DNA of 26,937 bases from Candidatus Aenigmatarchaeota archaeon (GTDB taxonomy: Archaea > Aenigmatarchaeota > Aenigmatarchaeia > QMZS01), in NCBI GenBank assembly GCA_016932615.1, contig JAFGCN010000023.1:1-26937 (forward strand), in the 5' to 3' direction. Position numbers and translations under genes: made by a program. This document shows, in pieces, positions 5,247-26,937 of the stretch (its first letter is position 1; every line of letters starts with the position of its first letter). The notes under the pieces were generated by a model. The model worked only from the letters and a program-made list of their open reading frames with translations. It ran no database searches and was not told the origin of the DNA.

Positions 5247-8200
5247 ATGGAGGAGCCACTGTTCAACCCGAGAACCGTAAAGCGGCTAGTTTCAGATATC
5301 AAGATTTCGGCCAAGCAGAAAAGGGCAGCTGAAGACTGGCTTAATCTGCTTAAAGAAGGAAAACTTGAAAAAGAGAAACAAGGTTATTTCCCATTCGCAA
5401 ACATCCTTCTAAGAGACCTTTTGGGGTACGATATAAGCCTTGAGAGCCTAAAACACGAGGACAAGCACATGGAGTTCTCGTTCGAGGACAAAACAGGGTC
5501 AAAATTCGTGTGCTTTGAGGCGAAGGGCACGAAAACCGAAGATTTATGGGCATCTCAGCACCGAAACGAAAAAGTAAAAGAGACGCCCGTCAATCAAGTC
5601 AATCATTATATCTACGAATTAGGGATTCCGTATGGAGTTCTGACAAATTACAAGATATTTGTGCTTTTTGACAGAAGTGTGGGGAGTTCAAAATTCCACA
5701 AGTTCGATTTCTGCTCAATTCGGGAAAATCCGGAAAAACTGAAGGAATTCGTGGCTATCTTTTCAAGGGAGAGCTTAGAAGGCGGCTTTGTCGAAAAGCT
5801 GTCCGAGGCGTCAAAAGTCGAGGAGCGGAATTTCACAAAGGAGTTTTACAAGCTGTTCCACGAAACCCGCCTGATGATGCTCAAGGAATTCCGTGAGAAC
5901 GGCATTTCAAGGGAGGACGCGCTCCATTATGCCCAGCTTTATCTGAATCGCCTGATGTTTACATTCTTTGCTGAGGACACAGACAAGCTTTCCGAGCGGC
6001 TTTTCGAGAAAATGGTGACAGACGCCCTCAAAATGGAAACTTTGCTCTCCGACAGGTCAAACTACGTTTCCGCCACGATTTCTGACCTGTTCGGGCGGAT
6101 GAATGAAGGTTCGGAAACGCCCGTAAAAATCCAGCAATTCAACGGCGGCCTGTTCAAAGAAGAAATCCCTCAAACGGTGTACTTTAAGGACTTTAGGGAT
6201 TCAAAGTTTTTCGCCGAGGTTTACAAAAATTCCACGCTCAAAAAGGAGCCGGAACTCGACGAGGCGACAAAGCCGATTTTCACCAAGTACCAGAATAAGC
6301 TTAGCCCAATCATCAAAAACCTGCTTCTTATGGCGTCCTTTGACTTCAAGACCGAAGTAAACGTAAATATCCTGGGCCACATATTCGAGCAGTCGCTTTC
6401 GGATTTGGAGGAGCTTAAGGAAGGAAGCGAAGTGTCGAAACGCAAGAAAGACGGTATTTTTTACACGCCGGAGTACATTACAGACTACATCTGCCGGAAT
6501 ACGATTATTCCGTATTTGTCCAAAAAAGAGGCGAAAACCGCCAAAGAGTTGGTCAAAGAGTATTCTTCAGACATTTCCGAGCTTGAGGAGAAATTCCGGC
6601 GGATAAAGATTTTAGACCCCGCCTGCGGCTCAGGGGCGTTTTTGATAAAGGCGGTCGATGTCCTGCTTGAAATTCAAAAGGAAATCCAGAACTTCAAGCA
6701 GGAAAAGGGAGAATATTTTGCGACAGGCGCCACCGGCTCGCTTGGCTCGGGAAAACGGCTCAGCGCAAAAGACAAGCAGATGTCCCTTATCGGAGAAAGC
6801 TCAAAATGGGTCGAGGAAGACGAGGCAAGGGAAATAATCCAGAACAACATTTTCGGCGTTGACATAAACGAGGAATCGGTCGAGATAACAAAGCTCAGCT
6901 TATTCCTGAAGATTGCCAAGAAGAACAAGAAGCTGATAAGCTTGGACAAAAACATAAAGTGCGGAAATTCTTTGATTGACGACAAATCGGTTGACCCGAA
7001 GGCGTTCAAGTGGGAAGAGGAGTTTTCGGAGATTATGTCAAAAGGCGGTTTTGATGTGGTGATTGGGAATCCTCCTTATGTCAATATTGCCAACATTAGT
7101 GATGAAAATACCAGAACATTCTACCAAACTCATTATGCAACTGTTAAGAACAAGAGTGATCTGTATAGTATATTTACCGAAAAAGGAAAGAATCTTTTGA
7201 AGAAAGAGGGATTATTGAGTTTTATATTCTCAAACTCTTGGTTAGGCACAGATAGTTTCAGCAAATTTAGAGAGTTTCTTGTAAATGAAACAGAAGTATT
7301 ACGATTAATAAAACTGCCTCCAGGAGTTTTTGAAGATGCAATAGTTACAACAACCATACTTACCTTCCAGAATAAAATTCCCCCTAACAATCACAAAATA
7401 GAGCTTTTGGAATATGATAATGGAAAATTCGACAAAATGAATCATGACTTAGCATATGAAAGAATAAAAAGAACTCAGAATTTGACATTTTCTTTCGAGC
7501 CGGAAACTATATTTCATACAAAGACCGTAAGACTAGGAGAAATTGCGAATTTTTCTTTAGGAATAAAAACAAGTGATGACGAAAGATTTATTTTGGAAGC
7601 TAAAAAAGATAATGATACTTACCCTGTACTTAGAGGAAAAGACATTGATAGATATTATTCCGGCAAATCTAAAAAATGGATTTGGTACAAACCAAAACTT
7701 ATGATGGAGAAAGTAGGGGCGGGCCCAAGAAAAATAGAATATTTCAAAGTTCCATCAAAAATACTTTTTCAGGGAATATGTGGGGGGAGTATCAAAGCAA
7801 GCATTGATACCGAGAAACATCTTACAAACGACAAAATACATATCCTCTATTATCTGGAGAAGAATTACCGGGTATCCTATATTCTAGCTTTAGTAAACTC
7901 TAAATTTATTGATGCGTGGTTGAACTCCAATTTCAATAAACTTCTTGAAATAAAAATAAACCAGCTTCAACAAATCCCAATCCCAGAAATCCCGCCCTCC
8001 GAGCAAAAGCCATTTATCGAGAAGGCGGATAAAATGCTAAAACTTAACAAAGAATTTTACGAGAAGAGGGCGAAATTCCTCGACAGGGTCGCCCAAAACC
8101 TCAAAGTCGAGAAAAGCTCGAAAAGGGTCGAAAACTTCCACGAACTCGCCTTTTCGGACTTTTTGGCGGAGCTTGCCAAAAAGAAGGTCAAACTAACGCT

Positions 8201-8366
8201 AAAAGAGCAGGACGAGTGGTCGGAATATTTCGAGGGCTACAAAAAGGATTTGACCGGATTAAAGCAGGAAATAGAGAAGACAGACCGGGAAATTGACCAG
8301 ATGGTTTACAAGCTCTATGGCTTGACCGAAGAAGAGATTAAGATTGTTGAGAGGAGTTTGAAGTAA
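5247..8366 (+). CDS. Type IIG restriction-modification enzyme (Eco57I-like, endonuclease and adenine methyltransferase in one chain)
   Basis: One 1039-residue protein holds every part of a type IIG system. An N-terminal nuclease-like region has a candidate E-x-K pair at Glu91-Lys93 (CFEAKGT), preceded by GYFPFANILLRDLLGYD. A helical linker runs to about residue 440. The N6-adenine methyltransferase core has motif I DPACGSG at 457-463 and motif IV NPPY at 608-611. The C-terminal part resembles TaqI-type target recognition (LGEIANFSLGIKTSDD, YPVLRGKDIDRYY, INQLQQIPIP) and ends in a charged helical tail. Expected role: cut and methylate one strand-specific DNA site. It stands alone, with no separate restriction, modification or specificity gene. 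The DNA for residues ~612-911 is clearly AT-richer than the rest, suggesting exchange of the recognition part. The recognition sequence cannot be read from here. Confidence 0.88.
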   Translation: MEEPLFNPRTVKRLVSDIKISAKQKRAAEDWLNLLKEGKLEKEKQGYFPFANILLRDLLGYDISLESLKHEDKHMEFSFEDKTGSKFVCFEAKGTKTEDLWASQHRNEKVKETPVNQVNHYIYELGIPYGVLTNYKIFVLFDRSVGSSKFHKFDFCSIRENPEKLKEFVAIFSRESLEGGFVEKLSEASKVEERNFTKEFYKLFHETRLMMLKEFRENGISREDALHYAQLYLNRLMFTFFAEDTDKLSERLFEKMVTDALKMETLLSDRSNYVSATISDLFGRMNEGSETPVKIQQFNGGLFKEEIPQTVYFKDFRDSKFFAEVYKNSTLKKEPELDEATKPIFTKYQNKLSPIIKNLLLMASFDFKTEVNVNILGHIFEQSLSDLEELKEGSEVSKRKKDGIFYTPEYITDYICRNTIIPYLSKKEAKTAKELVKEYSSDISELEEKFRRIKILDPACGSGAFLIKAVDVLLEIQKEIQNFKQEKGEYFATGATGSLGSGKRLSAKDKQMSLIGESSKWVEEDEAREIIQNNIFGVDINEESVEITKLSLFLKIAKKNKKLISLDKNIKCGNSLIDDKSVDPKAFKWEEEFSEIMSKGGFDVVIGNPPYVNIANISDENTRTFYQTHYATVKNKSDLYSIFTEKGKNLLKKEGLLSFIFSNSWLGTDSFSKFREFLVNETEVLRLIKLPPGVFEDAIVTTTILTFQNKIPPNNHKIELLEYDNGKFDKMNHDLAYERIKRTQNLTFSFEPETIFHTKTVRLGEIANFSLGIKTSDDERFILEAKKDNDTYPVLRGKDIDRYYSGKSKKWIWYKPKLMMEKVGAGPRKIEYFKVPSKILFQGICGGSIKASIDTEKHLTNDKIHILYYLEKNYRVSYILALVNSKFIDAWLNSNFNKLLEIKINQLQQIPIPEIPPSEQKPFIEKADKMLKLNKEFYEKRAKFLDRVAQNLKVEKSSKRVENFHELAFSDFLAELAKKKVKLTLKEQDEWSEYFEGYKKDLTGLKQEIEKTDREIDQMVYKLYGLTEEEIKIVERSLK

Positions 8367-13225: not shown

Positions 13226-14647
13226 TCAGTAGCTCATTGTTTCTGCAGAGTCCCATTTCTGGTAGCTTTTCTGCAGGAAAGAGTGCCCCAGCGGGAAGAG
13301 GAGGGCGCTAAGCAGGAGCAGATACTGGCTGAAAAGCGGAAGGAATATCAGCGTGACAAGAATCGGGCAGGTGAGAAGGGAGTAGGACAAAAAGACCTTT
13401 GCGTTATACAGGAGTATGTTTGGCTGGAGCCCTGCAACCCTGATTGTGACAGATAGCGAGTAAAAAGAAGTGGCAAGGAAAACGAGGGTGGCGAGGGGCA
13501 GGTAACTGGAGTATCCGAGAATGGCGCCTGCAAGCCAAAGGACAATGATGCAAAGCAGGTCGAGCACCATGAAGCCGCGCACCTTGCTTTTTATGAGGTC
13601 TGACTGCTTAAGCGGGAAAAACCCGTATGATGTGAAAAGGTCAAACTCAGTCAGCCAGTTGTAAATGGTCGAGGAGATTGCCCCGAAAAAAACTGCGAAA
13701 ATGTAGAGGAAATTTATCCCTGGCATAAAGCCGGTAAGGGTTTGAAGGATTGCCCATACCAGCCCAAGGGGAATCAGGAGGGAAAATACGAGCTTTGCAA
13801 TCCCGCCTTCGCTTCGGCGCATGTCAAGGAAGTCTTTTGCTATGAGGTGCGAATACTGCCCAAAAGGCATAATCTTCGTCAGGGGAGAGAGGGAATTGTT
13901 GAATCGCCTTCTTTTGTCGGGGTAGTCGACTTTCAGGAAATTTATCGAAACTGCCGAAAGCAGGATTATTGCGGCAAGAGTTACCAGGACCTTCTGGGGC
14001 GAAGGCGAATAAAATATCGAGAGGGGAGTAAACAGCTCGAGCGGGCTTGTGCTGTATCTGATAAGGAGTGCTGCCAGCCCCAAAATTCCGGCAAGAACTG
14101 CGAGAAGGGCCTTTCTGGAATGCACGTAGACCGTCGAGAGAAAGAAAACCACCGAAAGCCCCAAGAGAAACGAGAGGGTGGCGGTCAGGAGAAGAAGCCC
14201 GACATGGTACGAGCTTATTCCAAGGAGAGGGGAAGCAATAGCAAGGCCGAGAATCGGGGGAAGAACCCAGAGGAAGAAGTAGAAGATTATGTCTTTGACA
14301 AAGAAGTTTGCAAATATTTCCTTTTCAGAAAGGGGGAGGGTTCTTGAAGAATACGTAATCATGCTCGCCTGCCCGAACCTTCGGTTCATAATCTCTCGCC
14401 CGAAGAGGCCGAAAGACCCGACGCTGACCCCGAAAAGAAGGTATATCAGGTGAAACACGCTTATCATCCTGCCAAGGGAATATATGGCCTGGAGGGCAGG
14501 AAGCATAAGCGAACCCAGGAAGGAAAAAGCCGCAAGCATTACGGGAAAAAGCGCGAAGTTAATCCCCCCGAACATCTTCGAGTGGACTCTCCATTCTTCC
14601 TTAACCATTGCCTTCAGGACAACAAGAGCCATCTTATCCACCGACAA
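13226..14647 (-). CDS. ABC-2 type transporter permease (473 aa)
   Basis: A strongly hydrophobic protein with about a dozen membrane segments in two sets, separated by a hydrophilic loop near residues 245-275 (DYPDKRRRFNNSLSPL) that would lie in the cytoplasm. Its start overlaps the end of the ATPase gene by 14 bases, which implies translational coupling and one transporter. The arrangement fits an ABC exporter or membrane-stress transporter, but I recognise no substrate-specific family. The 70-base gap to the convergent M16 gene holds nothing else recognised. Confidence 0.78.
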   Translation of the reverse strand: MSVDKMALVVLKAMVKEEWRVHSKMFGGINFALFPVMLAAFSFLGSLMLPALQAIYSLGRMISVFHLIYLLFGVSVGSFGLFGREIMNRRFGQASMITYSSRTLPLSEKEIFANFFVKDIIFYFFLWVLPPILGLAIASPLLGISSYHVGLLLLTATLSFLLGLSVVFFLSTVYVHSRKALLAVLAGILGLAALLIRYSTSPLELFTPLSIFYSPSPQKVLVTLAAIILLSAVSINFLKVDYPDKRRRFNNSLSPLTKIMPFGQYSHLIAKDFLDMRRSEGGIAKLVFSLLIPLGLVWAILQTLTGFMPGINFLYIFAVFFGAISSTIYNWLTEFDLFTSYGFFPLKQSDLIKSKVRGFMVLDLLCIIVLWLAGAILGYSSYLPLATLVFLATSFYSLSVTIRVAGLQPNILLYNAKVFLSYSLLTCPILVTLIFLPLFSQYLLLLSALLFPLGHSFLQKSYQKWDSAETMSY

Positions 14648-15353
14648 GCTCCAAAAAGAAGGATTCGAGCCGCTTTCTTTTTTTCAGCAGGGGGTTCATC
14701 TTTCCCTGGTAAATGAGCTTTCCCTGGTCGAGGACTCCAATGCTGGTGCATATCTCTTCGGCAATCTCAAGCACGTGAGTCGAGAAGAATACTGTTCCGC
14801 CACGGAGCGTGTATTGGCGGAGGTAATCCTTTACTTTTTTCTGGATAACCGGGTCGAGATTTATGAGGGGCTCGTCGATAAAGACCATTTCGGGCTCGTG
14901 CATGAAGCACTGGGCGAACATGAGCTTCTGCCTTGTCCCCCTTGAGAGGTCCTTGCAAAGAACCGTTCTCTGGTCCTGGAACCGAAGGCGCTTAAACCAC
15001 TCGTCGCACCTTTCCTTTATTTTCTTCTTCTCCATTCTTCTTATAGAGCCGGCAAAGTGGAGGTATTCTTCTGCCGTGAGAAATGAGGGGGGGTTTTCCT
15101 GCTCAGGCATAACCCCTATGGCGGCCCTTACGCCGATAGGGTCTTTAAGGACGTCGAGGCCCAGAACACTTGCCTTTCCTCTTGTGGGCTTTATCTGCCC
15201 GGTAAGCATCTTTATCATGGTAGTCTTTCCTGAGCCGTTTGCCCCCAAAAGCCCGAAGAGTTCGCCCTTTGAAACCGAAAAGGTCGTGTTGTTTACCGCG
15301 GCAAGGGGGCCAAACTTTTTGGTCAGCCCCCGCGCCTCAATTACGGCTTTCAT
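14634..15353 (-). CDS. ABC transporter ATP-binding protein
   Basis: Walker A is GANGSGKTT (about residues 35-43), the Q-loop is in GVMPEQENPP, Walker B is MVFIDEP and the switch histidine is in FFSTHVLE. The signature motif is LSRGTRQK rather than LSGGQ, as seen in several ABC-2 exporter ATPases. At 239 residues it is a single nucleotide-binding domain. It powers the overlapping permease. A TATA-like ACTATATTC lies about 25-30 bases upstream. The TrmB-type regulator ending 46 bases upstream, on the same strand, could control it. Confidence 0.93.
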   Translation of the reverse strand: MKAVIEARGLTKKFGPLAAVNNTTFSVSKGELFGLLGANGSGKTTMIKMLTGQIKPTRGKASVLGLDVLKDPIGVRAAIGVMPEQENPPSFLTAEEYLHFAGSIRRMEKKKIKERCDEWFKRLRFQDQRTVLCKDLSRGTRQKLMFAQCFMHEPEMVFIDEPLINLDPVIQKKVKDYLRQYTLRGGTVFFSTHVLEIAEEICTSIGVLDQGKLIYQGKMNPLLKKRKRLESFFLELVGG

Positions 15354-15399: not shown

Positions 15400-16110
15400 C
15401 TAATCTTTTTTAGAAGCATCCCACATAATCTCAAAGTAGCTCTGATAGGTGTCTGCAAGCTCTTTGCTCTTTATCCTTATGGAAAGAAAAGGGTCTGAGC
15501 AGATTATGATGCCAACCCTATCTCCGTAGATTATCGTTGTTGCCCGGTAAGAGTATTTTTCAGGCAAAAATCTCATTGTCGTGGTCTTTGATTTTATTAT
15601 ATCAGGCCTTTTCTTTATCAGCTCCCTTTCGTGGATATTTTCCCTTTCAAGCGCCTTCATGAAGTGTGTCAGGAAGAAATCGATCTTTTTGCTCCTTACG
15701 TCTTCGGAAATAATGCAGTAGTCTTTCTTTTTTTCAAGAATCTCATCCACCATTGCTTTCATTCCTTTCGTTCCCCTGAAAATTTCGACCGCTGGCTCTT
15801 GCTTTTCCTTTAATTGGGACATTTTTTTTAGCTTTGGAAGAATCTCCATCAGGGCCGCTTCTTTTTCCTTAAGCTGATGAAGCATCCTTTCCGGATCAGA
15901 CGCCTTGAACTTCTTGGCCTTGTTTTCGGTAACGAAGGATGCAAGGCCTTTTTCAACAAGCGACTCAAGAATCCGGTAAGTTTGTGTTCTCTCTATTTTT
16001 GTCTTTCTTGAAACCCCAAGGACCGAGGACTCTCCAATCATGAGAAGCGCAAGATACACTTTTGCTTCTTTTTTGTCCAGCCCAAGCCGTTCCAAAACTG
16101 CATCTTCCAT
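15400..16110 (-). CDS. TrmB-family transcriptional regulator (fourth, divergent paralog)
   Basis: An N-terminal winged helix (LGLDKKEAKVYLALLMIGES, then KTKIERTQTYRILESLVEKG at about residues 30-50) is followed by a ~150-residue TrmB-type effector domain with EIFRGTKGMKAMVDEIL, RFLPEKYSY, IIYGDRVGIII and the C-terminal AxxYQSYFEIMWDAS. Effectors of TrmB proteins are often sugars, but none can be named here. The ATG at 16110 is chosen because homologs start just before this helix; a frame further upstream adds 32 unlike residues across the promoter. The recognition helix (ERTQTYR) differs from KATVYD of the three paralogs at 18.6-25.8 kb. The start is followed on its upstream side by TATATAAATA at 16123-16132. 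Position suggests control of the ABC transporter, the operon at 16200, or both. Confidence 0.87.
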   Translation of the reverse strand: MEDAVLERLGLDKKEAKVYLALLMIGESSVLGVSRKTKIERTQTYRILESLVEKGLASFVTENKAKKFKASDPERMLHQLKEKEAALMEILPKLKKMSQLKEKQEPAVEIFRGTKGMKAMVDEILEKKKDYCIISEDVRSKKIDFFLTHFMKALERENIHERELIKKRPDIIKSKTTTMRFLPEKYSYRATTIIYGDRVGIIICSDPFLSIRIKSKELADTYQSYFEIMWDASKKD

Positions 16111-16199
16111 AATAGTAGAGGGTATATAAATACTTGATGTGTAATTTGCACAACAAGGAAACAAATAGATAAGGATACTACTATGTTTAGGTGAGAAAA

Positions 16200-17405
16200 A
16201 TGGCATGGAAAGAAGTTGAGACTACCCTTGCAGCAAGGGATTATCCCTGTAGAGCAGACAAACTGTTTTGGGAGCTTTCAGGCGATGTCTATGCCAGAAA
16301 AGTGGACAATGTATCTGTGGCTAGTGGCGACAACTCTATGAAACTAAAGTCCTACGCCAGAGATGGAGTGGATGCAAATGTGGAACTGGCTCTGGGAAAA
16401 GGCCGATTTGATGATATTTGCTCAATACTTCCGCACGTTATTTCTTCAACAGGGAACCGTAAGGAGAAGGCTTATTCCCTTGATGTGGGCTTGAATCTGG
16501 GAAGATTTGCCGAAGGTGAAGGCGGGCTTAAAGTACCGTACTTGGAGCATGTGGTCTATAGTCCGGAAGAATCGGGCAAAAGTTCCAAGGGATATGACCC
16601 TAAGAACTTCTTGGTGTCGCTGGTGTTTCCGGAAAATATTCGAAGGAAACTTGAGCATTACGGGGATTGTTCTGCCATGGATAAGGATTTGCCGGAAGCC
16701 GAGCTTGCGTTGCTTATTGGAGAGGCTGCCCTGAAAGACGGCTTCGAAAGATCTGAGAAGGTCTATAAGTGCGTAACTCCCGTATGCCCGCCTCCAATGA
16801 GAATGGACTATAATGAGCTGCTGGACTTCATAAGAAAAAGCCCCAGTTTAAAACTGGAGGGCAGATATGTTGAGAACACAAAGGGTGGAAAAAAGGAGTC
16901 GGTTTTGGCAGATATTACCCCCAGCCATCTTTCCCTGGAGTGTCTTTTGATAGACCGGTATAATACAAAGCTTAGCCGCGATAAGCTGATAACGCCCATA
17001 TTGGAATCCACTGAAGTTGAGTTCAGCCCCAGCGCTGCAATTGGGCTTAATGAAAGATACGAAGGTTTTTTTGAAACCTTGGGCAAGGGCTTTGCCAAGA
17101 ATGTGCGGGCTTTGGGCAAAAGAAAATTCCTTGCTGGTAAGCGCACTTCAGTAAGAGACTCCCGTGGAGCCATGAGGGAACTGGGATCCATTCCTTTATC
17201 TGCCGGCTATAAGTTGCTGGATGAACCTTTGGGCCTCAGTGAGAGAAAAGAGCAAGCCAAGAGAGAAGCAGAGCTCAAGGACTTCTTTGAACGCACTCTC
17301 TCCAAAGGCGGGGTCAAAAGGCCGGATGGAAGCACCTGCCTGGCGGTAATGGACAAGAAGTGCCTTACGGATAAGTTTGATGAAAAGAGGAAAGAGGGTG
17401 TTTGA
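16200..17405 (+). CDS. Uncharacterised protein, first gene of a three-gene operon (401 aa)
   Basis: I recognise no family. The protein starts AWKEVETTLAARDYPCRADK, is mostly soluble, and has a Lys/Glu-rich C-terminus (LSERKEQAKREAELKDFFER) likely to be helical. Scattered cysteines, including VCPPP and TCL, make no clear metal motif. The ATG at 16200 has TTAGGTGA at 16187-16194; a GTG at 16191 lies inside that ribosome site and is unlikely to be the start. It is divergent from the TrmB-type gene at 15400-16110, with 89 bases between. Its stop codon TGA is part of the ribosome site of the next gene. The function is unknown, as for its two partners. Confidence 0.75.
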   Translation: MAWKEVETTLAARDYPCRADKLFWELSGDVYARKVDNVSVASGDNSMKLKSYARDGVDANVELALGKGRFDDICSILPHVISSTGNRKEKAYSLDVGLNLGRFAEGEGGLKVPYLEHVVYSPEESGKSSKGYDPKNFLVSLVFPENIRRKLEHYGDCSAMDKDLPEAELALLIGEAALKDGFERSEKVYKCVTPVCPPPMRMDYNELLDFIRKSPSLKLEGRYVENTKGGKKESVLADITPSHLSLECLLIDRYNTKLSRDKLITPILESTEVEFSPSAAIGLNERYEGFFETLGKGFAKNVRALGKRKFLAGKRTSVRDSRGAMRELGSIPLSAGYKLLDEPLGLSERKEQAKREAELKDFFERTLSKGGVKRPDGSTCLAVMDKKCLTDKFDEKRKEGV

Positions 17406-18611: not shown

Positions 18612-19358
18612 CTAATCTTCAGGGCTTGTTTTTGAAGCATTCCAGATTATGTCAAAATAGGAGCGAAACGCCTTGGCAAAGCAGGGGTCTTTTATGCTTA
18701 TCACCAGGGGGTCCGATTGCCAGAGTATCAGGTTGAGCCGGTCGCCGTAGGTGATGAATGCTGCCGGGGAATTGTTCTTTTCGGGGTAATATCTTGCCTC
18801 TATAGTTGGGCAAAACGCCTTTACTTTCTCTACTTCTTCTTTAGCTTCTTTTTTGTTTGCAACAATAGTCCTGCCAAGTGGAATGGTGGTCTTCAGGTTT
18901 TTGAGTGGATGCACCAGCCGATGCCCCATTATGCCCATCATCTGCATCGAAGCCCCCAGCGCCAGAACCGGCTTTCCTGCTTTTGCCATATCCAGGAACA
19001 TGGACTTTACTGCGGCTTTTCCTTCAAGGACTTTTATCTCCCTTTCCGCTTTGTTAGAGGAATAGTATTTTTCAAGCGTTGGGTAAATTTCCATTATCGC
19101 GTTCATTTTGCCTTCCAGTATCTCAATCAGGCACTTGGGGTCGACGGGAGAATAATAATTTCGCCCTTCCCGGTTTACATGTGAAGCAAGGCCTTTTCTT
19201 TCAAGAACTGACAGCAGGTCATAAACCGTTGCCTTGTGGACCTTTAGCTTTGAAACCAGGGCGGGAGCGGTTGTTTCCCCGGTTTTTAGGAGAAGGTGGT
19301 ATAGCTTTGACTCAAGGTCAGTCAGTCCAAATTCCCTTAATGCTACTTCAACCTCCAT
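18612..19358 (-). CDS. TrmB-family transcriptional regulator (cassette 1)
   Basis: The N-terminal winged helix includes LTDLESKLYHLLLKTGETTA and the recognition helix KVHKATVYDLLSVLERKGL (about residues 37-60). It is followed by a TrmB-type effector domain with EIKVLEGKAAVKSMF, ALGASMQMMGIMGHR, FITYGDRLNLIL and AFRSYFDIIWNAS at the C-terminus. It is a close paralog of the regulators at 23742-24476 and 25105-25839. It is divergent from the S-component gene at 19434, so it is probably a repressor of the S-component, radical SAM and ECF operon. The MEVEVALREFG start is shared in style with its paralogs (MEP...). Its own promoter is unclear: the TATA-like element nearby fits the rightward gene better. 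Confidence 0.88.
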   Translation of the reverse strand: MEVEVALREFGLTDLESKLYHLLLKTGETTAPALVSKLKVHKATVYDLLSVLERKGLASHVNREGRNYYSPVDPKCLIEILEGKMNAIMEIYPTLEKYYSSNKAEREIKVLEGKAAVKSMFLDMAKAGKPVLALGASMQMMGIMGHRLVHPLKNLKTTIPLGRTIVANKKEAKEEVEKVKAFCPTIEARYYPEKNNSPAAFITYGDRLNLILWQSDPLVISIKDPCFAKAFRSYFDIIWNASKTSPED

Positions 19359-19365
19359 AATATGG

Positions 19366-19402
19366 TATATAAATACTTAGGTAGTAGGATTTGCGACGAC
19401 GA
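19366..19402. promoter_or_regulatory. Promoter and operator-like dyad of cassette 1
   Basis: TATATAAATA (19366-19375) suits a rightward start near 19396. An 18-base block at 19369-19386 (ATAAATACTTAGGTAGTA) is nearly the same as blocks at 24483-24500 and 25848-25865. A dyad follows: AGGTAGTA, eight bases, then GACGACGA at 19395-19402, with core GTAGT and ACGAC. The dyad lies between the TATA box and the inferred start, as expected for a repressor site. Confidence 0.5.
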
Positions 19403-19433
19403 AATTAAACAGCAGGAAAATGCAATCACGAGT

Positions 19434-20006
19434 ATGGGACAAAAAACATTAGTTGGAGGATTTAGCACAAAGGAGCTTACTGTGTGCGCCCTTTTTGGAG
19501 CGCTGCTCTTTTTCCTGGTTTTCCTTTTGGGGGCAGGGGTGGTGACTGTAACGGGGATCCCTGTTTCAGGTGGGCTTGCAAACATGATGGTGGCTCTTCT
19601 GGTGCTTACTATTGGAAAGAGGATTGTCGATAGATTTGGCTCTGCTGCGCTGATATGTGTGGTGTCAGGAATACTTGCAATACCGACCATCAGCTGGGGC
19701 CCTCCAGGTGTTTACAAGGTATTCCTTCTCTTGGCTATAGGGCTTGCCTATGACATTCCCTATCATTTGCAGAGGCAGAACCGGTGGAGAGAATTTATAG
19801 CAGGCGGCACGGTAGGGGTTATTGCTGCGCCAACAATGTACTTGTTTCTCTCTGTCCTGGGCCTTCCTGGAGCGGACAAGCTGGCGCCTTTAGTGGCAGT
19901 TTTCATGGTCGTCTACGCAGTCCTTGCCTCGGCTGGCGCGCATTTTGGAAAATGGATATATGAAACCAAGCTAAAGAACCGGGCTTTTTTGAGGGCGCTT
20001 AGCTAG
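19434..20006 (+). CDS. ECF transporter S-component-like membrane protein (cassette 1, 190 aa)
   Basis: A hydrophobic protein with about six membrane segments and family-like marks: KELTVCALFGALLFF at the N-terminus, TGIPVSGGLANMM, PTISWGPPGVYK in a loop, LGLPGADKL and the C-terminal KWIYETKLKNRAFLRA. These correspond one-to-one with the proteins at 24548 and 25913. The start is set at 19434 (MGQKTLVGGF) because the paralogs start there; the frame continues 72 bases upstream into the operator. As an S component it would bind a small molecule and pair with EcfT and the ATPase downstream. Substrate unknown; no match in my memory to a characterised vitamin S component. Confidence 0.72.
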   Translation: MGQKTLVGGFSTKELTVCALFGALLFFLVFLLGAGVVTVTGIPVSGGLANMMVALLVLTIGKRIVDRFGSAALICVVSGILAIPTISWGPPGVYKVFLLLAIGLAYDIPYHLQRQNRWREFIAGGTVGVIAAPTMYLFLSVLGLPGADKLAPLVAVFMVVYAVLASAGAHFGKWIYETKLKNRAFLRALS

Positions 20007-20020
20007 ATGAGGTGACAAAA

Positions 20021-21343
20021 ATGACAGATTCCATTTCTTTAGTGAACACTAACTATGCTTCTAACCCCATGAACCTGATGGGGAAGCCAAGGCCGGAAGG
20101 CATTTCTTCTCCGGCGGTCAGGCCGCAGCTTGGCCTGGCATCCCTTGGCGCTTACTTGGGGTGTTATATGCCTGAAACTAAAGTCTATCTGGTCGATGCT
20201 GTTTTGGAGAATCTGGCTCCTGAGGAAACCGCAAAGCGCGCATTGAATGAAGCTCCGGGAGCCATTGGCGTTTCGTCTACCTACCACAACCTGAAAGAGG
20301 CCTTGGGAGTGTTAAGGAGCGTAAAAAAAGATGCTCCTGATACCATTACAATTCTTGGTGGGCCTGGGGCAAGGTCCCTTTTCGACATTGCTGGCGGAAA
20401 AGATGTGGAGTATGTAAACTACGCGGTTATGGGGGACGGGGAATTGGATTTAGAAAGAATACTTGAAAAAGCCAGCATCCCAAAGGAAACTCAGTTCACT
20501 CAGGATTTTGTGTCTCTCAACATACTGCCAAGCGCCTATGACCTAAACCCGGAAACGGAAAGGCCATACCTGGACATGTTTGATGTTGAAGGGTATTTTA
20601 AGGCAAACAGGGAGCTTGGGTTTCACGGAAGGCCAAGCGATGGAAAGCTCTTGACTGACTACACCTGCAAGGGTTGCGGCTGGAGAAGGTGCGCACACTG
20701 CAGCACAGAAACTCCCTGGCGGGGTAGAAGCCCAAAGCGGCTTGGGCGGGACTTACAAAACATTAAGGACTTTTACGGGGAGAACTGTGAGCTTTTCATT
20801 GTAGATGATAACCCTACTACGGGGCCGGATAGTTGGATAATTGAAACTTACCGGACACTTGGAGAGTCTGGCTTTCCCTGGCATACTCAGATAAGGGTGG
20901 ACGAAGCGCTTAAAAAATGCGGCGGAAAGCTTCCACAGATAATGGCCGACTCTGGATGTACAAGCGTTTCCATTGGCGCAGAAAGCGGTTCCCAGAAAGT
21001 CCTGGATGCACTGAAAAAGGGGATAACTCCTCAGCAAACCCTGGATGCAGTAAAAGCCTTTGGCGATGCTGGAATTAAGACAAGCATGTTCCTGATGTAT
21101 AACTGCCCCGAAGAAGACAAGTCAGACCTTGATAGAACTCTTGAAATGGCCCGGAAAGCCATTGAAACCGGAAACATAGAATCGGTTCTTGCGTTTGAGT
21201 ATGTGCCAATACCCGGCTCCAGGGCTTACCGCCAGAGGCGGCCTGGGGGAAATATTAAACAAGGCGAAAAGGAATATTTTCGGGACAAGCTCCTGGAAAT
21301 CGGGAGAGGGAAGGCGGCGGTAATTCCCGGGACGTACAAATAA
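20021..21343 (+). CDS. B12-binding-type radical SAM protein (440 aa)
   Basis: The N-terminal ~130 residues resemble a B12-binding Rossmann domain (RPQLGLASLGAYLG, VYLVDAVLE, GAIGVSSTYHN, ITILGGPGA, MGDGELDLERIL). They lack DxHxxG, as in many B12-dependent radical SAM enzymes. The radical SAM cluster is unusual: Cys216-x2-Cys219-x4-Cys224-x2-Cys227 (CKGCGWRRCAHCS), so the 4Fe-4S cluster is probably held by Cys219, 224 and 227 in a CX4CX2C layout. The barrel follows (LFIVDDNP, VSIGAESGSQKVLDALKKG, TSMFLMYNCPEED). GAGGTGA at 20009-20015 supports ATG 20021; an upstream GTG lies within this site. It sits between the S component and ECF motor genes, so its product or substrate may be what is imported. 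Reaction unknown. Confidence 0.85.
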   Translation: MTDSISLVNTNYASNPMNLMGKPRPEGISSPAVRPQLGLASLGAYLGCYMPETKVYLVDAVLENLAPEETAKRALNEAPGAIGVSSTYHNLKEALGVLRSVKKDAPDTITILGGPGARSLFDIAGGKDVEYVNYAVMGDGELDLERILEKASIPKETQFTQDFVSLNILPSAYDLNPETERPYLDMFDVEGYFKANRELGFHGRPSDGKLLTDYTCKGCGWRRCAHCSTETPWRGRSPKRLGRDLQNIKDFYGENCELFIVDDNPTTGPDSWIIETYRTLGESGFPWHTQIRVDEALKKCGGKLPQIMADSGCTSVSIGAESGSQKVLDALKKGITPQQTLDAVKAFGDAGIKTSMFLMYNCPEEDKSDLDRTLEMARKAIETGNIESVLAFEYVPIPGSRAYRQRRPGGNIKQGEKEYFRDKLLEIGRGKAAVIPGTYK

Positions 21344-21357
21344 GGAGATAATCTTAT

Positions 21358-23004
21358 TTGAGAACTTGTACAATTATGCTGGAAATCCGGGACCTTTCAT
21401 TTTCCTATATTGGCGAAAAGAAGGTTCTGGATGGAATTAACTTGTCTCTTGACAAGGGCTTGTTTTGCCTTATCGGGCCATCGGGATGCGGAAAGTCGAC
21501 TCTTTGCCTTGCCCTGAACGGGCTTATCCCCCAGTCAATCCCGGGAAAGCTTGAGGGGAGAATTACTGTCGGCAAGCTGGATACTCAAAAGAAGCCGGTA
21601 AGTGAAATTGCCCGCTTTGTTGGGCTTGTCTTCCAGAATCCCGACTCGCAGCTTTTTTCGCTTTGCGCAGAGGACGAGATTGGCTTTGGTCCCTGCAACC
21701 TTGGCCTGCCCTGGAAGGTGGTAAGCGAAAGGGTGGACGAATCCATCGGGCTTCTGGATATACCACACCTTCGAAACAAAAGCCCTGAAGAAATGAGTTC
21801 GGGCGAAAAGCAAAAAGTAGCGATTGCCTCAGCCCTCTCGATGAAGCCCAGGATTCTTGTGCTTGACGAGCCGACAGCAAACCTGGACCCTGTTTCAGGA
21901 GAGGAAATATTCAGGATTGCAAAGCGGCTGGGAAAGAAGATGCTTGTGTTTATGGCAGAGCATGACATAGATAAGGTCATGAGTTATGCTGACCGTGTTG
22001 GAGTTATGGCCAGGGGCCGGCTTGAAATTGTCGGAGAGCCGCATCAGGTCATAAACCATCCCGATTTTCAGAAGTACCTTGAGCTTCCTGAAGTCGCCCG
22101 TGCAGGAGCGCTTGTTGGCCTCAAAAGCCTTCCCCTTGCGCCGCAGGACCTTGCAAGGAAAATCCGGCTCAGGAAGCGCCTTCCAAGGGAGCGGGCTTTT
22201 AAGAATGGAAAGGCGATAATTGAAACAAAAAGTCTTGAGTTTGGCTATGAACAGGCAAAGCCGATTCTTAAGGGTATAAGCCTTAAAATTCACAGGGGAG
22301 AGTTCGTTGCGATAGTTGGGGGAAACGGGGCAGGAAAATCAACGCTTGTTGCCCATTTCAATGGGCTTTTAAAGCCGACGAAAGGGGAAGTAAGAGTTGG
22401 AGGAAAAAGCACCCGCGGCCAGGAAGTTTCGGCGCTGGCGCGAAAAGTGGGCTATGTATTCCAGAACCCGGACCTCCAGATTTTTGAGGATACGCTTCTT
22501 GAAGAAGTCTCTTTCGGGCCGAGAAACATTGGCCTCTCTAAATCCGAAACTTCAGGAAGGGTTGAAGAGGCGCTGCGCTCGGTCGGGCTTTGGGAATTTA
22601 GAAATGCTGACCCATTCTCGCTTTCAGTGGGCCAGAAGAGGAGGGTTACGATTGCGTCAGTCCTTTCAATGAAGCCGGAAGCGGTAATCGTTGACGAGCC
22701 CTCAACGGGTCTTGACCCCAGGACTTCTGAAGGGGTAATGGCTCTTTTGAGAAAGATGAACCGGGAAGGCAAAACAATTATCCTTGTCACTCACGACATG
22801 GACCTTGTGGCCCAGTTTGCAAGGAGGTGCATTGTGATGGATTCCGGGAGAATTGTTGCCGACGGGACTGTAAGGGAGGTATTTTCCGATATGGCTCTTC
22901 TCGAGAAGTCCCGGCTAATGAGGCCCGAGATAAGCAAAGTAGGCGCCCTGATTGGAGAGCCGCAGATAGCTACAATAAGCGACCTTTTGAGGTGCGTATC
23001 ATGA
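21358..23004 (+). CDS. ecfA: Fused double ECF transporter ATPase (EcfA1-EcfA2 in one chain, 548 aa)
   Basis: Two complete ABC ATPase domains stand in tandem. Domain one: Walker A GPSGCGKST (about residues 40-48), signature MSSGEKQK, Walker B ILVLDEPTANLDP, switch His in MAEHD. Domain two starts near residue 285: Walker A GGNGAGKST near 320-328, signature LSVGQKRR, Walker B AVIVDEPSTGLDP, switch His in VTHDMD. This is the energy-coupling ATPase pair of an ECF importer fused in one protein, where many organisms have two genes. The TTG start at 21358 follows GGAG at 21344-21347; ATG at 21376 (MLEIRDLSFSY) is the alternative and fits the usual N-terminus well. The stop overlaps the EcfT start by four bases. 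Confidence 0.92.
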   Translation: MRTCTIMLEIRDLSFSYIGEKKVLDGINLSLDKGLFCLIGPSGCGKSTLCLALNGLIPQSIPGKLEGRITVGKLDTQKKPVSEIARFVGLVFQNPDSQLFSLCAEDEIGFGPCNLGLPWKVVSERVDESIGLLDIPHLRNKSPEEMSSGEKQKVAIASALSMKPRILVLDEPTANLDPVSGEEIFRIAKRLGKKMLVFMAEHDIDKVMSYADRVGVMARGRLEIVGEPHQVINHPDFQKYLELPEVARAGALVGLKSLPLAPQDLARKIRLRKRLPRERAFKNGKAIIETKSLEFGYEQAKPILKGISLKIHRGEFVAIVGGNGAGKSTLVAHFNGLLKPTKGEVRVGGKSTRGQEVSALARKVGYVFQNPDLQIFEDTLLEEVSFGPRNIGLSKSETSGRVEEALRSVGLWEFRNADPFSLSVGQKRRVTIASVLSMKPEAVIVDEPSTGLDPRTSEGVMALLRKMNREGKTIILVTHDMDLVAQFARRCIVMDSGRIVADGTVREVFSDMALLEKSRLMRPEISKVGALIGEPQIATISDLLRCVS

Positions 23005-23729
23005 AGTTTTACCAGTACATCCACAGGGATTCCGCTGTCCATCGCCTTGACCCCAGGGCGAAACTGCTCTGGCTCCTTCTCTTCTCAAGCATTGTTTTCA
23101 TCACACAGAACGAAGGGCTGGTCCTGGCGATATTTGGCCTGACACTTCTTTTTGCGGCTCTTGCAAAGCTTCCAAAAGGCCAGATATGGGAAAACACCAA
23201 ATTCTTTGTGATTCTCATGCCGATTGCTTACCTTGTTCTTTACTTTCTTCTCCTTGGAATTTCCGCTGAGGCATTTTGGGGAAGCTTAGTATTTTCTGCA
23301 AGGTTTCTGGTCCTGATTTTTGCTTCGGTGATTTTCACGATGACCACCAGCACCCGAGACCTGATGCTTGCTCTTTCAAAGTTGAAGCTTCCATATTCAT
23401 TTGTCTTCATGCTTACAGTTGCTATTCGCTTTATCCCGGTCATAATGGCTGAAATCAACAACGTAATCTGCGCCCAGAAAGTGAGGTGCTACAACCCGGA
23501 GCTTAAATGGAACAGTCCAGTTGAAAGCATGAAGCGCTTTGTGCCTATTCTCATACCTGTCCTTATGCTGCTCTTAAAGCGCGCAAACGAGCTTGCTCTT
23601 TCTGTCGAGTCAAGGGCGTTCAACCCGAAAGGAAAAGTCACTTACCCGGAGCGTCTTAAGTTCAGGGCTTGGGACTGGGCGTTTACACTTGCAATTATCG
23701 GGCTGTTTCTGTTTGTCCTGTGGGCTTAG
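23001..23729 (+). CDS. ecfT: ECF transporter transmembrane component EcfT (242 aa)
   Basis: A membrane protein with several hydrophobic segments and the two coupling helices of EcfT: AIRFIPVIMAEINNVICAQKVR and KRANELALSVESRAFN. These carry the short Ala-Arg type motifs that fit into the ATPase grooves. The N-terminus YIHRDSAVHRLDPRAKLLWLL is also family-like. The ATG overlaps the ATPase stop (ATGA) and has GAGGTG at 22989-22994. It would work with the fused ATPase and with each of the three S-component-like proteins. The gene ends 12 bases before the convergent regulator of cassette 2. Confidence 0.93.
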   Translation: MKFYQYIHRDSAVHRLDPRAKLLWLLLFSSIVFITQNEGLVLAIFGLTLLFAALAKLPKGQIWENTKFFVILMPIAYLVLYFLLLGISAEAFWGSLVFSARFLVLIFASVIFTMTTSTRDLMLALSKLKLPYSFVFMLTVAIRFIPVIMAEINNVICAQKVRCYNPELKWNSPVESMKRFVPILIPVLMLLLKRANELALSVESRAFNPKGKVTYPERLKFRAWDWAFTLAIIGLFLFVLWA

Positions 23730-23741
23730 GGTGGGCAATGA

Positions 23742-24476
23742 TTAGGATCTGGATACGAGCCAAATCATCTCGAAGAATTTCCTGAAAGCGTCAGCGAACC
23801 TCTGGTCCCGGATGATGACTACAAGCGGCTCGTCTGAGCAGGTCAGAAGGGTTAGCCGGTCTCCGTATGTAGCAAAGGACACGGTGGAGAAATATTCTTC
23901 GGGGTAGAACCTTACCTTTGCGATTGGAAATATCTGGCTCAGCCCTGATGCAAGCTCTCTTACGTCAGACTTGTCCACGAAAATCGCCTTGGCAGAGATA
24001 CCTTCTTTTTTGAACTTGTTTAGAAACTGCATCGCCCGGTGCTTCATCACAGGAATCATCTGGAGCGCGCTTCCGACAGTATATAGCTCACCTCCAACTT
24101 CGCAGACATCACTGAAATATGCTTTCAGCCCCTCCATCCCATCGATTACCCGAACCTCCCTCTTTGGGCTTTTTGAGGTATGCATTTTTTCGAGGAGGGG
24201 AAAGACAGATTCAAAGCAGCTTTTTTTCTCTTCAAGCATCTCGAAAAACTTCTTTGGGCTTTCAGGGGAATAGACCTCCCTGCCACGCCGTTTCATGTGC
24301 GTTACGAGCCCTTTTCTTTCAAGATTGGAGAGGGCATTGTAAACCGTTGCCTTGTAGAATTTTATCCGCTTTACTATTTCCGGGGCGGTAGATTCGCCGA
24401 ACCTTAGCAAATCCAGGTATATTTTGCTCTCTGCATCTGTAAGGTCAAACTTCTTTAGCACACTTCCCGGCTCCAT
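23742..24476 (-). CDS. TrmB-family transcriptional regulator (cassette 2)
   Basis: The winged helix has LTDAESKIYLDLLRFGESTA and recognition helix KFYKATVYNALSNLERKGL (about residues 38-58). The effector domain carries EVRVIDGMEGLKAYFSD, TVGSALQMIPVMKHRAM, FATYGDRLTLL and AFRKFFEMIWLVS. It is paralogous to the regulators of cassettes 1 and 3 and, like them, divergent from an S-component gene. The recognition helix differs from the others mainly by Asn in place of Asp after KATVY. Its probable target is the S component at 24548. The convergent neighbour on its 3' side is ecfT. Confidence 0.88.
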   Translation of the reverse strand: MEPGSVLKKFDLTDAESKIYLDLLRFGESTAPEIVKRIKFYKATVYNALSNLERKGLVTHMKRRGREVYSPESPKKFFEMLEEKKSCFESVFPLLEKMHTSKSPKREVRVIDGMEGLKAYFSDVCEVGGELYTVGSALQMIPVMKHRAMQFLNKFKKEGISAKAIFVDKSDVRELASGLSQIFPIAKVRFYPEEYFSTVSFATYGDRLTLLTCSDEPLVVIIRDQRFADAFRKFFEMIWLVSRS

Positions 24477-24482
24477 AATCAG

Positions 24483-24516
24483 ATAAATATTTAAGTAGTC
24501 TATAGCAAGACTACTT
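24483..24516. promoter_or_regulatory. Promoter and perfect operator dyad of cassette 2
   Basis: ATAAATATTTAAGTAGTC (24483-24500) is the shared 18-base block. The dyad is exact: AAGTAGTC at 24493-24500, eight bases, then GACTACTT at 24509-24516. It lies between the TATA-like ATAAATAT and the S-component start at 24548, and is a likely binding site for the divergent regulator. Confidence 0.6.
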
Positions 24517-24547
24517 TTTTGTTAAACATGGCATACCAAATAGAGGT

Positions 24548-25108
24548 ATGGTTGGAAAATTGGCTACCCGGGACTTAGCGGTTTGCGCTCTCTTTGGAGC
24601 TCTGGTGTTTGCCGGTGCCTACCTGCTTGGAACAGGCATTATCGCGCTTACAGGCATACCTGCTACGGGGTCCCTCCTGAATATGGCTTATTCGCTGATG
24701 GTCATAATCGTTGGAATAAAGGCGGTAAACAAGTTTGGGGCGGCAACGCTCATTCTTCTTGTGGAAAGTGCCCTTGCAATTCCCACGACTATATTTGGCC
24801 CTCCTGGCATGTACAAGCTGGCAATTGCGCTTTTAGTGGCTCTTCCGCTTGACTTTCTTCTGGAAGCTTCGAAAAGGAGCAATATCTCGCTTTACTTTGC
24901 AGGGGCAGCCGGTGCTGCATTGAACACCTTGCTTGTCTGGGCTTTCCTGAGCTTTCTTGGGCTTCCTGGTGCAGAGCAGTTGGGTGCTGTTTTGCTCCCA
25001 CTTGCTGCTGCAAGTGCTATCCTGGGGCTTGTAGGCGCGTATATAGGGGTCTGGCTTTTTGACAATAAGCTGAAGAAGCGGGCTTTTATAAGGCAAATGG
25101 GTGGCTAA
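24548..25108 (+). CDS. ECF transporter S-component-like membrane protein (cassette 2, 186 aa)
   Basis: Same family as the proteins at 19434 and 25913: RDLAVCALFGALVFAG, TGIPATGSLLNM, PTTIFGPPGMYK, LGLPGAEQLGA and the C-terminal VWLFDNKLKKRAFIRQ. About six membrane segments. No motor genes follow; the gene ends by overlapping the convergent regulator of cassette 3 by a few bases, so it must borrow the fused ATPase and EcfT if it is an active transporter. The ATG follows GAGGT directly, a poorly spaced ribosome site. Confidence 0.72.
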   Translation: MVGKLATRDLAVCALFGALVFAGAYLLGTGIIALTGIPATGSLLNMAYSLMVIIVGIKAVNKFGAATLILLVESALAIPTTIFGPPGMYKLAIALLVALPLDFLLEASKRSNISLYFAGAAGAALNTLLVWAFLSFLGLPGAEQLGAVLLPLAAASAILGLVGAYIGVWLFDNKLKKRAFIRQMGG

Positions 25109-25839
25109 TCTTTGGCCAAAGACCACAGCATCCTAAAATATCCCCTAAAGGCGTTTGCAATAGCGGCGTCTTCAATCATAATCACTACAATCTCGTCTTC
25201 CCAGATATTCAGGGCAAGCTTGTCACCATAAATATTGAACGCAACCGGAGAGTTGAATTCGGGAGGGTAATATTTGATTTCTATATTTGGTATCATCCGC
25301 TTTACCTCTTCTGCGCCCTTTCTTACTTCTGGCTTGTCGACTAGCAGGGTTTTTGGGTGAAGCGATTTTTTGTTGAAGCTCTTAATCTGCTGAATAGACC
25401 GGTGTCGCATAACGGAAAAAACCTGAAGGGAGCTTCCAAAAGATAGTATTTCTTTTTCTTCAGTTGCCATGTCGTTCATCATTGACCGAAATCCATCTTT
25501 TCCCACCAGGACACTGATTTCTCTTTGCGGTTTATTTGTAGAGTAGTATCCTTTTAAAATGGGGTGGACCTGCTGCAGGGCATCCATTTTTTCCTTTAGA
25601 AGTTCAGTTAGCTTATCCGGGTTTAGGGAATAGTATACCCGGTGATTTTTCTTTTGCACATGGGCAACCAGGCCCTTTCTTTCAAGGGCAGAGAGGATGT
25701 CATAAACGGTTGCCTTATAGAGCTTTAGCTGGCTTATCAGGGCAGTTGCAGTTGTCTCTCCGCTTTTCAAAAGGCTAAGGTAGACCTTTGACTCAAGATC
25801 AGTAAGCCCGAATTCCCGAAGCGCTTCCTGCGGTTCCAT
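25105..25839 (-). CDS. TrmB-family transcriptional regulator (cassette 3)
   Basis: The winged helix has LTDLESKVYLSLLKSGETTA and recognition helix KLYKATVYDILSALERKGL (about residues 38-58). The effector domain shows EISVLVGKDGFRSMMND, SFGSSLQVFSVMRHRSIQ, FNIYGDKLAL (Lys where the paralogs have Arg) and AFRGYFRMLWSLAKD. Closely paralogous to cassettes 1 and 2 and divergent from the S-component gene at 25913. Its 3' end overlaps that of the cassette 2 S-component gene. Probably a ligand-responsive repressor or activator of cassette 3; the ligand is unknown. Confidence 0.88.
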   Translation of the reverse strand: MEPQEALREFGLTDLESKVYLSLLKSGETTATALISQLKLYKATVYDILSALERKGLVAHVQKKNHRVYYSLNPDKLTELLKEKMDALQQVHPILKGYYSTNKPQREISVLVGKDGFRSMMNDMATEEKEILSFGSSLQVFSVMRHRSIQQIKSFNKKSLHPKTLLVDKPEVRKGAEEVKRMIPNIEIKYYPPEFNSPVAFNIYGDKLALNIWEDEIVVIMIEDAAIANAFRGYFRMLWSLAKD

Positions 25840-25847
25840 AATAGGGG

Positions 25848-25881
25848 TTAAGTATTTAAGTAGTAGTGTAGCTTACGACTT
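25848..25881. promoter_or_regulatory. Promoter and operator-like dyad of cassette 3
   Basis: TTAAGTATTTAAGTAGTA (25848-25865) is the third copy of the shared block. The dyad is AAGTAGTA (25858-25865), eight bases, then TACGACTT (25874-25881), seven of eight positions paired. The spacing equals that of the other two cassettes. The S gene has its own ribosome site GGAGG at 25906-25910. Confidence 0.55.
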
Positions 25882-25912
25882 ATAGGTAAATCCTGCCTGG
25901 CCAAAGGAGGAT

Positions 25913-26476
25913 ATGGTAGGAACATTTACGACAAAGGAGTTAGCAATATGCGCTCTCTTTGGAAGCATGGTTTTCGTAGTAGGGTATGTTCTGGGAACAA
26001 TTGTCATCTCCATGACGGGAATTCCCTTTACTGGCGGGATTCTAAACATCCTTGTGGCGGCGATAATATTTTTCAGTGGAATCCGGCTGCTTAACGAAAA
26101 GTTTGGGGTAGGGGCACTGATGTTTACGATAGTTTCGATAATTGCTATTCCTACGACGATTGTGGGGCCTCCTGGCGTGGCTAAGGTGGCGGTTGGCTTT
26201 TTGTCCGGGCTTGTATTTGACCTTGTGCTTCGTGTGGCCCCGAAATCAAAGTATCGTTTTGCGCTTTCCAGTAGTTTGGGAGTTTTGGCGTCATTTTTCT
26301 TAAGTCTCTGTTTGATGCTCTACATACTTCACCTTCCTTCTGCAGAGCAGCTTTTGTCTATGGCATATGTGTTAGTTCCATTATATGCTGTCCTGGGCGC
26401 ACTAGGTGGACACTTGGGCTCATGGCTCTATGAATCCAAGTTGAAAACCAGGGCTTTTTTCAGGGCGATTAAGTAG
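25913..26476 (+). CDS. ECF transporter S-component-like membrane protein (cassette 3, 187 aa)
   Basis: Third family member: KELAICALFGSMVFVVG, TGIPFTGGILNIL, AIPTTIVGPPGVAK, LHLPSAEQLLS and SWLYESKLKTRAFFRAIK at the C-terminus. About six membrane segments. GGAGG three bases before the ATG is a clear ribosome site, so the message has a leader that contains the operator dyad region. No motor genes follow; the next gene begins nine bases downstream of the stop and is probably in the same transcript. Confidence 0.73.
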   Translation: MVGTFTTKELAICALFGSMVFVVGYVLGTIVISMTGIPFTGGILNILVAAIIFFSGIRLLNEKFGVGALMFTIVSIIAIPTTIVGPPGVAKVAVGFLSGLVFDLVLRVAPKSKYRFALSSSLGVLASFFLSLCLMLYILHLPSAEQLLSMAYVLVPLYAVLGALGGHLGSWLYESKLKTRAFFRAIK

Positions 26477-26485
26477 GTGCTAAGT

Positions 26486-26937
26486 ATGAATAGAACGATT
26501 TGGGTTGGTGAAATAAAAAAAGACTCCTCTTATATAGCTGATGCTAACCTCTGTGTTATTGGGTATGATAAGGGGAAAAACGAATACAAAAATCCTAAAA
26601 AAAGAGTATATGATATCGCAAAAGAACTGTCAAGATACACCATTCCCGAAGCGGACGAGACTCGAATTCTTTTTTCGGGAGATAGTTATCTACTGGAAGG
26701 TCCGGATGTGCGGGGGATTATAGCTTTGGCAAAAGTAGGATTCTATTCAGACGATAATTTTGACGGATTTACTGGGGTTTTTACCGGTATCGAGCCCTCT
26801 GGCTTGAATTTACTTCAGGGAAGAAGAGAACCTCTCTTTGTTATGAAGCAGTATCCTTGGCATGATGTGGCTTTGCCAAAAGGCGCCAAAGAAATGCTCA
26901 ATCTAGCGACAAAATTTAAGATTTATTTTGAAGGTAC
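26486..26937 (+). CDS. Uncharacterised protein, cut by the right window edge
   Basis: The frame from ATG 26486 (MNRTIWVGEIKKDSSYIAD) stays open for 150 codons to the end of the window. GGTG at 26476-26479 lies six bases before the ATG. The visible part is soluble, with blocks such as TRILFSGDSYLLEGPDVRG, GFYSDDNFDGFTGVF and EPLFVMKQYPWHDVALP; I recognise no family. Its place nine bases after the cassette 3 S gene suggests a role tied to that cassette's substrate, as the radical SAM gene may be for cassette 1. AT content is somewhat higher than in neighbouring genes. Confidence 0.65.
   Translation, partial: MNRTIWVGEIKKDSSYIADANLCVIGYDKGKNEYKNPKKRVYDIAKELSRYTIPEADETRILFSGDSYLLEGPDVRGIIALAKVGFYSDDNFDGFTGVFTGIEPSGLNLLQGRREPLFVMKQYPWHDVALPKGAKEMLNLATKFKIYFEG

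Follow-up and report, generated by a model that had tools for sequence, protein, structure and literature searches.

Our results indicate that a single energy-coupling factor (ECF) motor, consisting of a fused double ATPase (EcfAA') and the coupling protein EcfT, probably serves four paralogous S proteins in this archaeal genome, and that the cassettes composed of a regulator gene (R) and an S gene were probably duplicated as units, three of them with a common candidate operator type. The window analysed is the whole stretch of 26,937 nucleotides, and searches were extended to the genome assembly (1.26 Mb, 29 contigs, 97% complete). Gene content (RtcB, diphthamide synthesis and TrmB regulators) marks the organism as an archaeon, and its genome size and relatives suggest a lineage of the DPANN type. 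The original prediction, which as a whole is partly supported, had placed three S-component-like genes, each divergent from a TrmB-type regulator gene, beside one EcfT and one fused ATPase. The coordinates of all six R and S genes proved correct (Table 1), the paralogy of S1, S2 and S3 is evident in all pairwise comparisons (40-42% identity over 184-185 residues, BLASTP E 1e-45 to 1e-48), R1 to R3 are 40-48% identical, and the genome-wide search returned one EcfT and one fused ECF ATPase. A fourth cassette, a B12-type radical SAM (rSAM) gene and an intergenic palindrome had been overlooked.

Table 1. Genes and candidate operators of the four R/S cassettes and of the ECF motor; positions refer to the window unless a contig is named.
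Feature	Position	Strand	Remarks
R1, TrmB-type regulator (HTH + PLD-like domain), divergent from S1	18612-19358	-	PF01978, 54.2 bits
Candidate operator GTAGT-N10-ACGAC, R1/S1 intergenic	19381-19400	+	pattern search
S1, S-component-like membrane protein	19434-20006	+	40-42% identical to S2/S3; first gene of motor operon
Radical SAM protein, B12-binding-like N-terminal domain	20012-21343	+	PF04055, E 1e-12
EcfAA', two fused ECF ATPase domains	21358-23004	+	TIGR04521/TIGR04520 over cut-off, two stretches
EcfT, transmembrane coupling protein	23001-23729	+	PF02361, 91.5 bits; sole EcfT in genome
R2, TrmB-type regulator, divergent from S2	23742-24476	-	PF01978, 57.9 bits
Candidate operator AAGTAGTC-N8-GACTACTT, perfect 8-bp arms, R2/S2 intergenic	24493-24516	+	
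S2, S-component-like membrane protein, modelled	24548-25108	+	AlphaFold model m6b65cf7ffedf; structure match 5EDL
R3, TrmB-type regulator, divergent from S3	25105-25839	-	PF01978, 61.0 bits
Candidate operator GTAGT-N10-ACGAC, R3/S3 intergenic	25860-25879	+	pattern search
S3, S-component-like membrane protein	25913-26476	+	40-42% identical to S1/S2
S4	contig C20, L009 5874-6434	-	fourth cassette; 51% identical to S2
R4, divergent from S4	contig C20, L009 6510-7250	+	fourth cassette

The two halves of EcfAA' are the strongest ECF-ATPase matches of the genome (274 and 191 bits), the next-best matches being other ABC ATPases with at most 170 bits, and both halves retain Walker A, signature, Walker B and H-loop. 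The first coupling motif of EcfT reads VRC, not ARG. The EcfT start overlaps the ATPase stop, and only 5 bp separate the S1 stop from the rSAM start, so that S1-rSAM-EcfAA'-EcfT reads as one operon. An alternative upstream ATG exists for S1 at 19362; the start at 19434 agrees with the lengths of the paralogues. A dedicated operon, characteristic of group I, is thus present for S1, whereas S2, S3 and S4 lie outside one. The co-occurrence expected of an S-component with EcfT and ECF ATPases in the same genome is seen in the operon, in the single EcfT and in a decayed EcfT-S pair of the sister genus.

Sequence searches find S-components poorly. For S1 to S3, no Pfam or NCBIfam family scored above its curated threshold. 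The best S-component-like match was Trep_Strep, under the cut-off, with E 0.2 for S1 and 0.53 for S2; no match below E 0.2 was obtained with PF12822 or any other Pfam S-component family, and none at E 1 with the YkoE family. Neither an alignment profile of the S proteins nor the single sequences retrieved a PDB sequence at E 10, a tblastn search of plasmids with S3 was negative, and related loci sought in a wider contig collection with a single sequence and with the alignment yielded none that was confirmed. The coding sequences are under purifying selection, codon position 2 being conserved far above position 3.

A structure was predicted for S2 from an alignment of four sequences (pLDDT 74, pTM 0.72), and according to this model S2 has the six-helix S-component fold, in line with the original prediction. 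With VIA-align, the best match was 5EDL, the thiamine S-component YkoE (Z 15.0, 174 aligned residues, rmsd 3.5), followed by FolT, RibU, ThiT and other S-components at Z 10-12.6; since Z values below about 13 can reflect a mere common helical arrangement, only the YkoE match stands clear. Foldseek likewise placed 5EDL first (probability 1.00), with an E value of 0.019 that is not significant alone; the fold assignment therefore draws on three lines combined, namely VIA margin, operon and docking motif. This motif lies in helix 1, which carries CALFGA (AxxxA) in S1, S2 and S4 and CALFGS (AxxxS) in S3. Contact with EcfT is made through AxxxA, which the non-transporter look-alikes MreD and sensor-kinase folds lack (PMC11109136), and a role of the small-xxx-Ala motif of helix 1 in EcfT docking has also been described elsewhere (PMC5037267).

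The claim that several S proteins are served by one motor agrees with the gene counts, four S genes and one EcfT; the motor would then be physically shared. Alternatively, S1 alone could partner the motor, as in the dedicated group I importer YkoE-YkoD-YkoC, and S2 to S4 could act as solitary facilitators or membrane receptors. The motor operon indeed contains S1 alone among the S genes, the ATPase fusion and the closest fold match both recall the dedicated YkoEDC system (PMC5037267), and the S-component fold is also used for receptor domains (PMC11109136). We nevertheless consider this arrangement unlikely: all four S proteins keep the small-xxx-small docking motif of helix 1 that receptors lack, S2 and S3 adjoin EcfT, two S genes likewise stand beside EcfT in the sister-genus remnant, and one operator type is common to S1, S2, S3 and the motor operon.

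As for the ligand, three loop signatures, TGIP, GPPGxxK and LP, are common to S1-S4. In known S-components both termini are cytoplasmic and the ligand is bound on the outer side; if this topology applies here, the signatures would occupy the outward-facing loops 1, 3 and 5. Among the charged residues, Lys90 alone is also invariant in a distant relative (G027) and in a decayed sister-genus copy (G007). Because this lysine is invariant and probably faces outward, a nutrient with an anionic group, bound near Lys90, is suggested.

Given the clear margin of YkoE in the fold comparison, thiamine or a part of it deserves consideration as the imported compound. A fused ATPase is shared with YkoD (PMC5037267), and P38-xx-G41 of the S proteins is the counterpart of the YkoE helix-2 kink Pro44-xx-Gly47. 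Thiamine is not favoured, since the position of Trp49, which stacks on the pyrimidine in YkoE, is occupied by Leu or Ile when assigned by P-xx-G-x-W spacing. The other YkoE contacts are Glu77 and Gln95, and helix 3 of the S proteins has no conserved acid. No RNA family, riboswitches included, was detected in the window, L009 or L010, and hence no TPP riboswitch in the window or on the contig of cassette 4; together with the negative search of the YkoE Pfam family, this makes thiamine import very improbable. A riboflavin importer as in other members of the phylum was likewise not favoured, as no S protein matches PF12822 and no RbkR is found here.

The rSAM gene offers another view of the substrate. 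Its relatives in the phylum are only 26-31% identical, and its best NCBIfam matches, ApyD and rSAM_ocin_1, fall far below the cut-off; a function as RiPP maturase was rejected, as the gap between S1 and rSAM has no room for a precursor gene. The S proteins might import a cobamide, or a cobamide precursor, for this enzyme. It is encoded within the operon and was counted as the only B12-binding match over the cut-off in the genome, though the domain match is borderline (PF02310, E 1.7e-7, 31.5 bits, just below the cut-off of 32.1), and an MtrA-like corrinoid-type domain is encoded on the same contig (136-1806). That gene is 18 kb distant, however, no rSAM lies near the sister-genus remnant, and the S proteins lack a match to PF12822 or another Pfam S-component family below E 0.2, so that we regard cobamide import as quite unlikely. 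A different proposal, which we put forward as speculative and rather doubtful, is an import-and-modify system, in which a new S family, multiplied as R/S modules on one fused motor, captures an anionic compound that is then processed by the co-encoded B12-type rSAM protein. To our knowledge, such a system has not been described for ECF transporters, and none of the papers searched joined radical SAM with energy-coupling factor, S component and operon.

A divergent R gene lies beside all four S genes. The R proteins comprise 244-248 residues, and R1-R4 constitute one clade (95/95), which excludes R0 and the other TrmB proteins compared, from this genome and from the sister genus. The fourth copy, on contig C20, and congruent quartets bear out the expectation that the R/S pair recurs as a unit: S2 and S4 are separated from S1 and S3 with a bootstrap of 90, and R2 and R4 from R1 and R3 with 99, an agreement that two quartets reach by accident one time in three. 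Because the S and R quartets group alike, the cassettes were probably duplicated as units. A local triplication alone, as proposed, does not account for them, as there are four cassettes and the nearest relative of S2 is the unlinked S4. The other R-like genes, in this genome and in the sister genus, have no S neighbour. The 3' end of R3 overlaps the end of S2.

The structural model of the R protein (pTM 0.49) aligns with TrmBL2 over its whole length and also matches PLD-type domains, whereas its alignment with TrmB (2F5T, a 233-residue fragment) is confined to chain residues 110-242. TrmB continues for about 100 residues past the PLD-like part, which form the C-terminal portion of its sugar-binding domain; the R proteins lack this portion and may bind small molecules in the PLD-like domain. 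The R proteins thus share the TrmB-type winged helix and the PLD-like domain with TrmB and TrmBL2 and differ from them in the missing C-terminal extension, in the candidate operator and in the pairing with S genes. None of the papers searched named both TrmB and 'ECF transporter'.

A further TrmB-type regulator, R0 (15400-16206, minus strand), is encoded immediately ahead of an ABC ATPase gene and another ORF (14634-15353 and 13226-14647, both minus strand), a grouping that appears to be a second regulator-transporter set unrelated to EcfT. R0 was rejected as a cassette regulator, for it falls outside the R1-R4 clade, has no GTAGT-N10-ACKAC upstream and adjoins the ABC ATPase gene.

The pattern GTAGT-N10-ACKAC occurs at exactly three sites in 1.26 Mb, all of them in the three R/S intergenic regions of the window, and the reversed control pattern occurs eight times in the genome. 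At the control rate, the chance of three sites in these 219 bp is about 4e-10, a value that makes the sites look more surprising than they are, since paralogous cassettes share ancestry and their sites, partly inherited, are not fully independent evidence. The palindrome sits between the two opposed start codons and beside a TATA-like box; judged by itself, it is of no more than modest strength in cassettes 1, 3 and 4. In cassette 4, ATTAGT-N10-GCTAAT is found in the same register, once in the genome, in the R4/S4 intergenic region, and the recognition helix, KATVY in R1-R3, reads SANVY in R4. Because R1-R3 share a single operator type that is absent from the rest of the genome, they probably constitute one cross-regulated regulon, and the notion that each importer has its own sensor becomes doubtful. 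R4 probably runs its own cassette separately.

These shared features also raise the question of whether the cassettes differ in ligand at all. They might be redundant copies that import the same compound and serve dosage, which would be compatible with a shared motor; the common TGIP, GPPGxxK and LP signatures and the single operator type of R1-R3 agree with this. At 40% identity, and with the residues between the signatures differing, the copies would be old for an array kept for dosage, and R4 and its operator have diverged; we regard redundancy as a serious but less probable reading.

Members of the S family are present in only three of 156 genomes of the phylum. In two genomes of the sister genus, G007 and G006, remnants lie at the same locus beside TYW1 (97% identical between the two). 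In G007 (C60, L010 13797-15610), an EcfT gene 61% identical to the one described here carries an internal deletion; a frameshifted S gene comes 110 bp after it and is itself succeeded by a second S fragment. In G006, only a scrap of EcfT is left at the locus. Between the two S remnants of G007, the translations alone suggest a small gene pair, nucleotidyltransferase-like and HEPN-like. G027 has a distant S relative (C1, L017 1279-1812, E 4e-9), possibly a solitary S-like protein, and no EcfT was detected there. An intact relative with S-EcfT linkage was not found in any other genome. Judging from the EcfT and S remnants of the sister genus, the ancestor of the family probably had this importer, which one genus lost while the present lineage multiplied the cassette.

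The resulting layout falls between classical group I and group II. YkoEDC, the group I thiamine importer of Bacillus subtilis, gives the best fold match and likewise has a fused double ATPase, one operon for its S, ATPase and T genes, and a Pro-xx-Gly kink where helix 2 begins. The present system differs in that one motor is accompanied by several S paralogues, that TrmB-type regulators take the place of the THI-box riboswitch and that the operon contains a radical SAM gene; it also lacks, by motif spacing, the thiamine-stacking Trp, and shows no sequence-level match. Group II systems (RibU, ThiT, BioY, PanT and FolT on EcfA-A'-T) resemble it in the small-xxx-Ala motif of helix 1 and, if the motor is shared as proposed here, in that one motor serves several S proteins. 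Their S proteins, however, belong to different families and are scattered, whereas the present S proteins are all paralogues of a single family, three next to the motor and each with its own divergent regulator, and the two ATPases form one protein. Of the remaining EcfT loci read in the phylum, the majority belong to riboflavin operons of the type RbkR-RibU-EcfA-EcfT, in which EcfT and an ECF ATPase likewise accompany a regulator gene and an S gene. Those archaeal operons have a RibU-type S protein (PF12822), a CTP-dependent riboflavin kinase regulator and a single ATPase, and their EcfT is only about 25-32% identical to the one described here.

We propose that the EcfAA' and EcfT motor would drive import for S1, S2, S3 and S4, of which S1 is encoded with the motor and the B12-type rSAM protein, S2 and S3 just downstream and S4 elsewhere. 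R1-R3 would bind the palindromic operator GTAGT-N10-ACKAC between the divergent starts and, presumably as direct repressors, would regulate both themselves and the S genes, the S1-rSAM-motor operon among them, so that scarcity of the nutrient would raise capture proteins and motor jointly. R4 has a changed recognition helix and operator and would control cassette 4 apart. Should this model apply, an S family without a match over the cut-off in Pfam, NCBIfam or PDB sequences is tied to the motor by operon, docking motif and fold, and the R/S cassette, with an operator unique in the genome, illustrates how an importer family on a common motor can gain regulated specificities one by one. In a small genome, it would mark a nutrient dependence that expanded in one lineage and was lost in its sister genus.

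Some further genes of the window were recorded. An ORF without a Pfam or NCBIfam match (26477-26937, plus strand) starts within 10 bp of the S3 stop and is truncated by the contig end; it is probably co-transcribed with S3 and perhaps is a ligand-processing gene. The gene at 136-1806 (plus strand) encodes a protein of 556 residues with an N-terminal MtrA-like domain (corrinoid methyltransferase subunit; PF04208, 117 bits). An Eco57I/MmeI-like restriction-modification enzyme of 1039 residues is encoded at 5247-8366 (plus strand).
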